Assembly (NCBI GenBank): GCA_031263965.1
Contig: JAISES010000222.1
Coordinates: 1 to 12,127 of the forward strand
Reading direction: 5' to 3'
Source: Prevotella sp.
Lineage (GTDB): Bacteria > Bacteroidota > Bacteroidia > Bacteroidales > Dysgonomonadaceae
Length of the DNA stretch: 12,127 nt
The notes beneath the pieces are model-generated. The model was not told the origin of the DNA. It did not search any database and saw nothing but the letters and a program-made list of their open reading frames with translations. Made by a program: the position numbers and the translations under genes. Below, piece by piece: positions 1,543 to 5,178 of this stretch; positions within the stretch are counted from its first letter, which is position 1; each line of letters opens with the position of its first letter.

Positions 1543-3723
1543 ATGATGAATCCGATTACAAAGAGTATCGATTTGGGTGATGGAAGGTCTATCACCATTG
1601 AAACCGGAAAACTAGCAAAACAAGCTGATGGATCTGTTACGCTACGCATGGGCAATACTATGCTGCTTGCCACAGTTTGTGCTGCAAAAGATGCAAATCC
1701 GGGAGTTGATTTCATGCCTTTACAGGTAGAGTATAAAGAAAAATTTGCTGCATTTGGCCGTTTCCCGGGAGGTTTCCTACGCAGGGAAGGCCGTGCTTCA
1801 GACTATGAAATACTGGTTTGCCGCTTGGTTGACCGCGTACTTCGCCCGTTGTTCCCTGACAATTATCATGCCGAGGTTTTTGTTAATGTTATCCTGTTCT
1901 CTTCTGATGGAGAAGATATGCCGGATGCATTGGCCGGATTGGCAGCTTCGGCAGCTTTGGCTGTTTCCGATATTCCATTCAATGGCCCGATCTCGGAAGT
2001 GAGAGTCGCACGCATCGATGGACAGTTCGTTCTGAATCCTACATTTACCCAATTGGCGCAAGCCGATATAGACATTATGGTAGGAGCTACGATAGATAAT
2101 ATCATGATGGTAGAAGGCGAGATGAAAGAAGTTTCGGAAGCGGAAATGCTCGAAGCCATCAAATTTGCCCACGAAGCTATCAAGGTACAATGTCAGGCGC
2201 AAATAGAACTGATGGAAGCTGTAGGCACAACTAAAAAACGCGAATACAGCCACGAAACAAACGACGAAGATTTACGTAAAGATGTATGGGCCAAATGCTT
2301 CGACAAAGCTTATGCGGTAGCTACATCTTGCAATACAAATAAACACGAACGCAGTGATAATTTTGCTGCTATCGTGGACGAATATAAAGCGAACCTTACG
2401 GATGAAGAATTGGCCGAAAAAGGAGCTTTAATTTCCCGTTATTACCATGATGTGGAAAAAGAAGCTATGCGCCGTTCCATTCTTGATGAAGGTAAACGCC
2501 TCGATGGACGTAGTACAACCGAAATCCGTCCTATCTGGAGCGAAGTGGACTATCTTCCGGGAGCGCATGGCTCAGCGGTTTTTACCCGCGGTGAAACTCA
2601 ATCGCTGACTACTGTTACCCTAGGAACAAAACTTGATGAGAAGATCATCGACGATGTACTGAACAACGGAAAAGAAAGATTCCTTTTACATTATAACTTC
2701 CCTCCGTTTTCGACAGGGGATGCAAGACCACAACGCGGAGTAGGCCGTCGTGAAATAGGTCACGGGAACTTGGCTCACAGGGCATTGAAACCAATGATTC
2801 CAAGCGAGTATCCTTACGTGATACGTGTCGTTTCCGACATATTGGAGTCGAACGGTTCTTCTTCTATGGCTACGGTTTGTGCCGGAACACTTGCTCTGAT
2901 GGATGCAGGGGTGAAGATTAAAAAACCTGTGACAGGTATTGCCATGGGGCTTATCTCCGAAAAAAAGGGAACAAATTACGCTGTACTTTCCGATATTTTG
3001 GGCGATGAAGACCACTTGGGAGACATGGACTTCAAAGTATGCGGAACCAAAGATGGTATCACAGCAACCCAAATGGATATCAAGGTAGACGGACTATCTT
3101 ACGAAATACTTGAAAAAGCTTTGAACCAGGCTCGTGAAGGCCGTTTGCACATTATGGGTAAAATACTTGAAACATTGCCGGAACCACGTCCTGACTTGAA
3201 AGACAATGCACCTCGTATTGAAGTAATAATCATCAATAAAGAATTTATAGGAGCTGTTATCGGCCCTGGCGGAAAAATTATCCAGGGAATACAGGAAGAA
3301 ACCGGAGCGACAATAACCATTGAAGAAATAGATGGTTACGGACGTGTAGAAGTTTCTGCAACCAACAGACAATCTATTGAAGCTGCTGTTGCCAGAATCA
3401 AAGGTATTGTAACTGTTCCTGAAGTAGGCGAAGTGTATACTGCTAAAGTACGTTCGGTAATGCCTTATGGTGCATTCTGCGAATTCCTGCCGGGTAAAGA
3501 CGGTTTGCTTCATATCTCTGAGTTATCATGGGATCGTGTGGAAGACATGGAAAAGGCAGGCTTGAAAGAAGGCGACGAAATAGAAGTGAAACTGATAGAT
3601 ATAGACCCTAAAACAGGTAAATTCAAATTATCCCGTAAGGTACTTCTTACTCGTCCTCCAAGACCGGAAAGACCTATTCAGAAAAACAACAATGCTGAGG
3701 GTAATTCCCAACAGCAAGCTTAA
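1543..3723 (+). CDS. pnp: Polynucleotide phosphorylase (PNPase)
   Basis: PNPase is a trimeric cytoplasmic 3'-to-5' exoribonuclease that uses phosphate to release nucleoside diphosphates and works in mRNA decay. The 726 residues cover the usual architecture: first RNase PH domain (about 5-145, with [14 protein letters not shown] at 71-84), helical linker (about 230-310), second RNase PH domain (about 315-545), KH domain (about 557-620, GPGG at 574-577) and S1 domain (about 628-700). The catalytic segment [16 protein letters not shown] holds Asp490, Asp496 and Lys498, which correspond to E. coli Asp486, Asp492 and Lys494. The ATG at 1543 gives [12 protein letters not shown], which lines up with the usual MINPI start of Bacteroidales PNPases. 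The open frame continues back to a GTG at 1426, but that extension looks non-coding and would cross the promoter box. The C-terminal tail is Gln/Asn-rich. The gene appears monocistronic, with a terminator 25 bases after its stop. Confidence 0.97.
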
Positions 3724-3748
3724 TTAAACAATTTAGCGTTCCTATATA

Positions 3749-3787
3749 AAGAATCCCGATTGAATAAAAATATCAATCGGGATTCTT
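3749..3787 (+). terminator. Intrinsic terminator after pnp
   Basis: A perfect 15-bp stem (3749-3763 paired with 3773-3787, core gaatcccgattga/tcaatcgggattc) closes a 9-base loop and is followed by the T-rich run TTATTATTTA. It starts 25 bases after the pnp stop codon. T-rich sequence also follows the hairpin when read on the minus strand, so it may stop transcripts from both directions. Confidence 0.85.
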
Positions 3788-3854
3788 ATTATTTACAGAT
3801 GTTACGCAACAAAAAAAACAGTATCATTCCATATTCATGTACTTTTTCCTGCGC

Positions 3855-3869
3855 GCAATCGAAGATTGC
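3855..3869. other. Hairpin A, left copy, within the inverted-repeat element
   Basis: The sequence gcaatc-gaa-gattgc forms a 6-bp stem with a 3-base loop. The right half holds the identical hairpin in inverted orientation at 4294-4308. It lies inside the 25-base block that the two halves share without change. Confidence 0.7.
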
Positions 3870-3873
3870 TTGC

Positions 3874-3903
3874 GTTCCTTTTGCCCTAAGCAGCAAAAGG
3901 AAC
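3874..3903. other. Hairpin B, left copy (11-bp stem)
   Basis: gttccttttgc (3874-3884) pairs perfectly with gcaaaaggaac (3893-3903) around an 8-base loop and is followed at once by CAAAAA. In the other half the equivalent position holds a different stem with the same trailing CAAAAA (see 4261-4286). The stem sequences differ at several paired positions but both pair fully. Confidence 0.75.
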
Positions 3904-3911
3904 CAAAAATG

Positions 3912-3955
3912 CTTTGAGCGCCCGCTTTACTGTGCGACCCGTGGCAGGCTCAAAG
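3912..3955. other. Hairpin D, left half only in this form
   Basis: ctttgagc (3912-3919) pairs perfectly with gctcaaag (3948-3955) around a 28-base loop containing CGACCC. The right half also keeps CGACCC (in complement) at the matching place but has only a short agccg/cggct pairing there (4210-4214 with 4232-4236), so conservation of this hairpin is less certain than for B and C. Confidence 0.5.
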
Positions 3956-3957
3956 GC

Positions 3958-4006
3958 TAAACGGGCTGAACTCGCATCTTCGATGCTCAGACAGGCATCC
4001 CGTTTA
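3958..4006. other. Hairpin C, left copy (nested stem-loop)
   Basis: An outer 8-bp stem taaacggg/cccgttta (3958-3965 with 3999-4006) encloses an inner stem gcatc-ttc-gatgc (3974-3986) followed by CTCAGACAG. The inner hairpin and the CTCAGACAG word recur in the other half, whereas the outer stem there is AT-rich and unrelated in sequence (4163-4209). Confidence 0.75.
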
Positions 4007-4162
4007 ACGCCTTTTTCTCCTGACGGGTTCCCCGCATGTAAAGCATACGGCGCAGGGCTGGCGCGTATTATTGTCGCATTGCGGTTTCGTCGTTCTTGTC
4101 ATGCGTCAGCCTGACGGCCTTGGCGGATAGACGGGGTACCCACACAGCGAAGCGGGCGTTAA

Positions 4163-4209
4163 AAACAAAATTCTGTCTGAGCATCGCTAGATGCGAGTTT
4201 ATTTTGTTT
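4163..4209. other. Hairpin C, right copy (inverted)
   Basis: A 9-bp outer stem aaacaaaat/attttgttt (4163-4171 with 4201-4209) encloses gcatc-gcta-gatgc (4181-4194). On the minus strand the inner part reads AACTCGCATCT, a short variable loop, then GATGCTCAGACAG, matching the left copy exactly outside the loop. The outer stem has changed from GC-rich to AT-rich while keeping its pairing. Confidence 0.75.
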
Positions 4210-4260
4210 AGCCGGCAAGCTGATTGTGGGTCGGCTATCCGCTACAGCCTTGACTTTTTG

Positions 4261-4286
4261 TAACTTTTTGGTCAAGCAAAAAGTTA
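4261..4286. other. Hairpin B, right copy (10-bp stem, inverted)
   Basis: taactttttg (4261-4270) pairs perfectly with caaaaagtta (4277-4286) around the 6-base loop gtcaag. Read on the minus strand it is followed by CAAAAAG, mirroring the left copy. Confidence 0.75.
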
Positions 4287-4386
4287 AGAGCAAGCAATCT
4301 TCGATTGCGCGCAGAAAAAAAACGATAAAATAATATGGAATGATACTGTTTTTTTTGTTGCGTAACATCAGTTTATAATTTTTTAT

Positions 4387-5178
4387 TCAGAAGCCGCGCT
4401 GCCGCATAGCCTCAAAGGTGAGAACGGCAGTAGAGACAGACACATTCAACGAATCTATTTTACCACGCATGGGAATTTTGATACGGGTATCGGCATTTTT
4501 TAGCCAGAAATCAGTCAGGCCATCGGCTTCCGTACCCATTACTATCGCAGACGGATGTGTAAAATCTGTGTCCTGATACCATTGCGATGCCTGTAATTCG
4601 GCAGCGAATGATTTTATATGCTTTTTGTGCAAAAAGTCCAGAGCCTCCTGCGAAGTACAAACAGCCGTCTGAACGGTAAACAAGCACCCTACACTGGAGC
4701 GTATAACATTAGGATTGTATATATCCGTCGCAGGATCGCAGATTATAACAGCATCTGCTTGCGCGGCATCTGCCGTACGGAGTATTGCACCGAGATTACC
4801 GGGCTTTTCCACTGCCTCCAGAATTATTATAAACGGATTGCCTGATAGTTTCATATCCGGCAATCCGTGATCTTTAGGTTTCGCCAAGACCAACAACCCG
4901 TCCGATCCCTCGCGATAAGCTATTCTTTCAAAAACTGAAACACCCACTTCGAACGTCTTACGTTCGGAAACAGTATCCAACACATCGGGATAATCTGTTT
5001 TATCGAACAGTTCCGGACAAACAAAAACAGAATCAATCTCATAACCGGCTGCCAGAGCAAGGCTCATTTCGCGCGCTCCTTCAAAAAAGAACAGATTTTG
5101 GTCTCTCCGCTCCTTACTTTTAGACAGCTTGACAATATTTTTTATTCCCGGATTTTGTAGACTAGTTATTTTTTCCAT
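4387..5178 (-). CDS. TrmH/SpoU-family RNA 2'-O-methyltransferase
   Basis: This 263-residue protein is a SPOUT (SpoU class) methyltransferase, expected to use S-adenosylmethionine to methylate a ribose 2'-OH in tRNA or rRNA. All three family motifs are present: motif 1 at 121-137 (Glu121, Asn128, Arg134 in KPGNLGAILRTADA), motif 2 at 213-221 (VMGTEADGL) and motif 3 at 234-249 (IPMRGKIDSLNVSVS), which forms the trefoil-knot cofactor site. Residues 1-100 match the small SpoU substrate-binding domain (KERRDQNLFFFEGAREM at 22-38). The length is normal for the family. The exact RNA target cannot be read from sequence, so no gene symbol is given. It lies 84 bases downstream of the LTA-synthase-like gene on the same strand, so it may be cotranscribed, but it also has its own -7 box. 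Its stop codon is 15 bases from the inverted-repeat element. Confidence 0.9.
   Translation of the reverse strand: MEKITSLQNPGIKNIVKLSKSKERRDQNLFFFEGAREMSLALAAGYEIDSVFVCPELFDKTDYPDVLDTVSERKTFEVGVSVFERIAYREGSDGLLVLAKPKDHGLPDMKLSGNPFIIILEAVEKPGNLGAILRTADAAQADAVIICDPATDIYNPNVIRSSVGCLFTVQTAVCTSQEALDFLHKKHIKSFAAELQASQWYQDTDFTHPSAIVMGTEADGLTDFWLKNADTRIKIPMRGKIDSLNVSVSTAVLTFEAMRQRGF

Follow-up and report, generated by a model that had tools for sequence, protein, structure and literature searches.

A composite Prevotella element with 13-bp ends matching those of IS701_2-like insertion sequences: a putative MITE mobilised in trans

The window analysed here is a 12,127-nt stretch of a Prevotella sp. 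genome (GenBank assembly GCA_031263965.1, contig JAISES010000222.1), in which a putative composite miniature inverted-repeat transposable element (MITE) of 576 bp (positions 3796–4371) lies between two convergent genes. The upstream neighbour on the plus strand (1543–3723, start inferred) is a gene that we take, from its sequence, to be pnp (polynucleotide phosphorylase-like); the facing gene on the minus strand (4387–5178), named in the same way, presumably encodes a TrmH/SpoU-like rRNA methyltransferase. Just past pnp, a 20-nt hairpin (3744–3792; 90% paired, 9-nt loop) stops three bases before the element and is likely the pnp transcription terminator. The element itself has no transposase gene, and among the listed open reading frames with ATG, GTG or TTG starts, the longest that lies wholly inside it encodes at most 69 aa.

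The element is built from two divergent left-type halves that are inverted to each other. Its outermost 40 bases form terminal inverted repeats (3796–3835, plus strand; 4332–4371, minus strand; 39/40 identical), and their single mismatch, reported in an earlier note made from the sequence of this DNA, falls at base 2, where the left arm begins CA rather than the CT of the right arm. Consequently, the left transposase end (3796–3808, plus strand), CAGATGTTACGCA, deviates at this base from the family end CTGATGTTACGCA, which is present exactly on the minus strand at 4359–4371. Further inward lies a second inverted block of 31 nt with 97% identity (3843–3873, plus strand; 4290–4320, minus strand), which holds CGCGCAATCGAAGATTGCTTGCG, hairpin-like by eye, and the 25/25 block of the earlier note, CTGCGCGCAATCGAAGATTGCTTGC, indeed identical throughout. 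When the arms are extended without gaps, they match over an outer 48 nt at 94%, reaching 8 bases into the flanks, and over an inner 31 nt at 97%. The longest exact inverted word has 38 nt, against at most 26 in dinucleotide shuffles (n = 200). Next to the second block, each half has a stem-loop at the matching place but with a different sequence, namely GTTCCTTTTGC / GCAAAAGGAAC on the left (3874–3903, plus strand; inverted block I8) and CTTGACTTTTTG / CAAAAAGTTAAG on the right (4249–4288, plus strand; I9 and I12). The inner inverted blocks I4 and I6 pair 3955–3994 (plus strand) with 4173–4213 (minus strand). The claim that both halves keep the same order of stem-loops holds for I1, I2, I4, and I6, which are nested in mirrored order, but not for I3 (3910–3934 / 4143–4167), which is out of order. 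The GC-rich centre is real (0.57 at 3996–4140, versus 0.40 in the window and 0.34–0.39 at the element ends). TTTA does stand directly beside both sides of the element, as the note had also seen, but it is not a target duplication: duplications in this family span 7–9 bp, and the left flank TTATTTA (3789–3795), where one would be expected, does not match the right flank TTTATAA (4372–4378).

The arms of the element recur throughout the host genome. A blast search with 3796–3873 returned at least 40 host matches with E ≤1.3e-7 (with 40 of 80 candidates scored), two of which are the element's own arms, so the sequence is not single-copy. The end motif GATGTTACGCA has 45 host sites (reversed control, 2), and the 13-mer CTGATGTTACGCA has 40 exact sites, 20 per strand (reversed control, 0). 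Among 28 other host copies that were displayed, a ATGTTACGCA-like end stands at the very start, after AT-rich sequence, in 22, about 30 bases further out in four (L018, L019, L022, L025), and is absent or clipped in two (L026, L029). The part common to unrelated element families is 13 bp, not 40; conservation at end positions 1–13 is partly built in, as only ends within 2 mismatches of the 13-mer were selected, and as the 17-mer of the collection scan fixes the bases around one end; only the loss of similarity beyond 13 bp is informative. At one host locus (L083; genome G000, contig C66, 6210–6243), two copies adjoin with only TTATATAA separating their ends, which looks as if the second insertion had used the target site of the first copy.

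To analyse the flanks, we joined each end to the next inward-facing end, with ≤3 mismatches over both ends and a distance of 40–1500 bp, and dropped repeated flanks; stretches from the host, from relatives in its order and from other genomes yielded 107 such pairs. An exact target duplication of 7–9 bp flanks 53 of them (35, 16, and 2 pairs for 7, 8, and 9 bp, respectively); by source, these are 6/13 pairs in the host, 7/13 in order relatives and 40/81 in other genomes. Permutation of the right flanks (n = 2000) gave a mean of 2.25 and a maximum of 9 exact duplications. If one mismatch is allowed at 7 or 8 bp, 70 of the 107 pairs carry a duplication (permutation mean 13.5, maximum 24). The consensus of the seven-base duplications is TTAWTAA. 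The element family was inserted by transposition.

Full-length relatives that combine these ends with a transposase gene, which the earlier note had envisaged, occur in Hymenobacter and on plasmids. The spacing of end sites led to Hymenobacter siberiensis, which contains a 1083-bp element with exact CTGATGTTACGCA ends, the duplication TTACGTAG, and a 343-aa transposase. This protein scores 287.6 bits with the NCBIfam model NF049921 (IS701_2; cut-off 250) and also matches Pfam DDE_5 and DDE_Tnp_1; its best IS4 model, IS4_4, reaches 98.7 bits against a cut-off of 250. A second copy in the same species (1136 bp) has one mismatched end, the duplication TTATATA, and a transposase match in two frames, and in a relative from the window's order there is a version of 1141 bp, which ends in CTCACCTTACGCA and is flanked by the duplication TTATTTGA. 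The Hymenobacter protein found matches in 3 of 14 genomes searched. Named plasmids gave 423 matching records; in the six examined, both ends read CTGATGTTACGCA in five and CTGACCTTACGCA in the sixth, and a 7-bp duplication is present in three. Two cyanobacterial plasmids bear transposase-carrying elements, for which no duplication was found. On the Acinetobacter schindleri plasmid NZ_CP044464.1 (L355), the insertion sequence with the same ends adjoins an annotated APH(3')-VI resistance gene.

Within the window's own genus, genome G001 harbours, directly inside such an end, a transposase fragment that the end of the contig cuts short. It scores 202.7 bits with the IS701_2 model, under the cut-off of 250, is 43% identical to the Hymenobacter transposase, with the invariant aspartates common to both, and aligns at 99% identity over 91% of the query with a 337-aa protein of a Bacteroidia bacterium (the best of 2071 matches with E ≤1e-30). 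The signature Y-(2)-R-(3)-E-(6)-K (YREK) is present in all eight aligned sequences that reach that region (nine aligned). To judge from these sequences, the transposase partner is present in the genus and not seen in the incomplete host assembly. Combining end pairs with open frames brought no autonomous element to light in the host segments fetched, and end pairs up to 4000 bp apart revealed none in 119 named loci, where pairs with an exact duplication span at most 563 bp.

The insertion-sequence group appears to be IS701_2-like, although its placement is not straightforward. The Hymenobacter transposase with these ends lies above the curated IS701_2 cut-off, the best NCBIfam model is IS701_2 and not an IS4 model, and a Cyanobacterium plasmid relative is annotated as 'group ISAba11'. 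According to PMC2266710, IS701 elements generate 4-bp duplications, measure 1400–1550 bp and mostly miss the YREK tyrosine, whereas the elements described here have duplications of 7–8 bp, measure 1083, 1136, and 1141 bp, and retain the tyrosine. The group filed under IS701 by the model thus fails three IS701 features listed there. For ISPepr1, of the IS4 family, the same paper gives AT-rich duplications of 7–8 bp, a complete YREK, and mostly CT ends, all of which are found here too; however, it also gives a length of 1500–1600 bp, as opposed to 1083–1141 bp, and YT-AA-YTT---A as end consensus, six of whose eight fixed positions agree with CTGATGTTACGCA. More distant elements of Hymenobacter siberiensis (G426; L284 and L286; 31% identity) have 5-bp duplications and best-scoring ends TAGGACTTACGCA, which share TTACGCA with the family end.

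The exact end 17-mer is present in at least 119 stretches in named genomes. Duplication-bearing elements were found in records titled Bacteroidetes and allied families, Ignavibacteria, Gammaproteobacteria (Thiotrichales, Methylococcaceae, and others), Sulfurovum, Chloroflexi, and Elusimicrobia, that is, in five phyla by record title when Ignavibacteria are counted within Bacteroidota; as the records are for the most part metagenome bins, individual cases may be misbinned. The 4.2-Mb assembly of Thiotrichales bacterium BB2 (G424) contains 340 exact ends (control, 0), and the stretches seen belong mostly to a single family of elements about 130 bp long; a transposase search in this genome found pieces only, two of the four matches containing a stop. 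Closer to the window, the 15-mer AACTGATGTTACGCA occurs in 12 of 393 sampled genomes of the order, and the 13-mer in 7 of 25 genus genomes; the host is among the seven, and none of the others has more than two sites. Some of these non-host sites lie inside long open frames and are likely due to chance, and the host is the only genus genome rich in ends. The literature searched brought up no account of this MITE family, though unexamined papers could hold one, and a literature search for TGATGTTACGCA gave no match.

Copy number, ends, duplications, a matching autonomous insertion sequence, and composite siblings (described below) can all be read from the sequences. The proposal of the earlier note, that the element is mobile but non-autonomous and has ends that a transposase reads, gains support from the dozens of copies, the target duplications and the transposase-bearing relatives with the same ends. 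In our view, the element is very probably a MITE that an IS701_2-type DDE transposase moves in trans via the 13-bp CTGATGTTACGCA ends, the window copy having probably later been rearranged or undergone arm exchange. A transposase of this group would recognise the 13-bp end at each side, cut the element out or copy it, and join it to AT-rich TTAWTAA targets through a staggered cut of 7–8 bp. Because only these 13 bp would be needed, DNA of any kind between two ends could be carried; in practice, the cargo is mostly hairpin-forming.

Several points weigh against this interpretation. Transposition in trans is deduced from sequence rather than from observed movement. The host genome has no match to the Hymenobacter transposase query and only three weak matches to the IS701_2 model (best, 36 bits), an absence that is weak evidence given an assembly that is 82.7% complete and in 527 contigs. 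Across a set of 150 relative genomes that includes the host, 65 have some match to the model and none lies above the cut-off. Moreover, 54 of the 107 end pairs have no exact 7–9 bp duplication, the window copy with its flanks TTATTTA and TTTATAA among them, and no precise empty site was found for the window locus in relatives, among which gene order varies.

The empty sites that the earlier note had suggested looking for were also sought at other host copies. With joined flank pairs of two host copies, on contigs C24 and C325, no other match spans the whole pair, and 22 of 25 genus genomes match some part of it. Two relatives share only the right flank of the C24 copy, and the shared part begins 11 bp away from the element. 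At the C325 site, one relative (L390) keeps both flanking genes at 72–76% identity, with 89 bases and no end motif between the matches, compared with 363 bases, including the 196-bp element, between the same matches in the host. Additionally, host contig C464 has a 68-base ungapped match (82%) that reaches 14 bases across the C325 junction. These matches are compatible with empty sites, but none is precise.

Two siblings in the host share the two-left-ended plan of the window copy. The sibling on C296 has 579 bp, 89% identity over 564 columns and the duplication GTAATAA; the sibling on C376 has 536 bp, 77% identity over 560 columns and the duplication ATAATAA, its right end being three mismatches off the family end. 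Since both have duplications of their own, the composite, seen in three host copies, is itself a mobile unit. The window copy would then have undergone a rearrangement or an exchange between arms, through which the matching duplication was lost and the arms were made alike. Alternatively, a single, ordinary insertion could have lost its 7-bp duplication by decay, with no rearrangement or arm exchange; we regard this reading as a serious contender, at somewhat less than an even chance. Both flanking 7-mers are AT-rich with TTTA beside each end, and gene order in the genus is fluid, so that neighbours can change without the element. The two 7-mers are out of register, however, and the arms share a variant, ACAAAAAAAACA after the end, that only three of the 59 exact ATGTTACGCA sites among the fetched host segments show, the arms themselves accounting for two of the three; both siblings have right ends of a different type. 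In addition, the pnp and methyltransferase genes, convergent in the window, lie close together in tandem in five relatives (G016, G012, G002, G010, G004) and in tandem but further apart in a sixth (G017), while in most other relatives they are not on one fetched stretch.

The earlier note suggested that sequence is kept identical where a protein reads it; the extra identity of these arms is specific to this copy and speaks for an exchange between the arms, or for recombination, and not for reading by a protein. Recombination with another inverted copy would explain the missing duplication, the likeness of the arms and the gene order together, which is not proof, given how fluid gene order is in the genus. 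We therefore consider the window copy to be probably a rearranged one, with rearrangement or arm exchange as the presumed cause of its missing duplication. Because its left tip differs, it may now be weak, or perhaps immobile.

Far less plausible than a DDE-mobilised MITE is a REP/BIME-like structured repeat, related to repetitive extragenic palindromes (REPs) and bacterial interspersed mosaic elements (BIMEs), that is moved as single-stranded DNA by a REP-associated tyrosine transposase (RAYT) of the HUH type. The host genome does contain three Y1_Tnp matches, one of which, a gene piece with an internal stop on contig C159, abuts an element end; moreover, the element is hairpin-rich, and CGTC-tagged REP-like palindromes occur in some copies. 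HUH transposition, however, makes no target duplications of 7–9 bp, and we rejected this mode of mobilisation on finding such exact duplications, which are accompanied by a matching DDE insertion sequence. Neither of the other two Y1_Tnp matches has an end at ≤1 mismatch in the stretch that surrounds it (3021 and 6000 bases, respectively). At the C159 locus (L033/L036; about 3460–4040), the RAYT-like piece adjoins the right end of an element copy and is followed by another repeat that ends in GATACGGCAATAATTATT. Finally, the idea that the sequence is not a mobile element but serves pnp as a regulatory region or a conserved structured RNA can for practical purposes be dismissed, as the element, though highly structured and just 3' of pnp, has dozens of copies elsewhere in the host, and our survey of 43 relative loci of the neighbour genes (21 methyltransferase, 22 pnp; flanks of up to 1500 bases) found the GATGTTACGCA end in none, on which ground a pnp-linked regulatory RNA was rejected.

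The interiors of the mobile elements differ widely. Single-linkage blastn clustering (E 1e-4) divided the 53 duplication-bearing elements into 24 interior groups, one of which is the Hymenobacter insertion sequence. Three groups join genomes: the host with L127, L226 with G048 and L145, and Thiomargarita L192 with Thiotrichaceae L206 and L211. The elements have no common sequence beyond their ends, and their interiors are mostly hairpin-rich. Folded with RNA energy parameters, the trimmed interiors of 21 of the 24 representatives (three fell outside the length or flank filter) have a mean z of −3.76, with 16 below −2, versus a mean of −0.51, with two below −2, for equal-length flanks (Wilcoxon p 0.0004). 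To our knowledge, MITEs of the RUP, NEMIS, and Nezha type have one interior each. The elements described here resemble them in being short, present in many copies, bounded by terminal inverted repeats, devoid of a transposase gene, and placed beside genes. They differ in that one 13-bp end extends over five phyla by record title and encloses 24 interior groups among 53 elements, whereas RUP, NEMIS, and Nezha are each named from one host group in PMC3733652.

One interior is of particular relevance to REPs, although the window copy does not contain it. A 110-base interior piece of the host with the palindrome CGTCATTGCGAGG...GAAGCAATCC has at least 41 matches (with 40 of 167 candidates scored), and G001, which has a single exact end, has 36 shorter matches to it, of 30–51 bases. 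When 46 host copies of the palindrome were examined, an element end was found on both sides in three, on one side in 17 and on neither side in 26, some of the latter sitting in elements whose degenerate ends were missed (for example, C292). The palindrome therefore also exists independently of the ends. In the host, the CGTCATTGCGAGG palindrome is also surrounded by a second repeat, which has a recurring edge like AATAATTATTGCCGTATC (L026, L030, L431, L441, L447). In PMC3733652, CGTC REPs are described by a CGTC tag, a stem of 8–9 bp starting with AT, a loop of 4–5 nt, and a CCA tail, and what moves them is left open. The host palindrome shows by eye the CGTC tag, the AT start, and a CC tail, and is a candidate for such a REP. 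Carriage between DDE ends could be one way in which CGTC-type REPs spread.

This pattern of cargo is of more interest than the window copy itself. The CTGATGTTACGCA end offers a search key for an insertion-sequence group that disagrees with the published family definition in duplications, size, and YREK. We further put forward, tentatively and as less likely than not, that a single group of transposases, reading a 13-bp end, amplifies extragenic palindromes regardless of cargo; in lineages of at least five phyla it would have independently mobilised whatever hairpin repeat lay between its ends, including CGTC-type REPs without a transposase of their own; hairpin cargo may be favoured as it aids the meeting of the ends or spares transcription. 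The origin of extragenic palindromes in bacterial genomes is unsettled, and a 13-bp end that crosses phyla, together with a named transposase model, suggests a route by which they may have travelled: hitchhiking between DDE ends.
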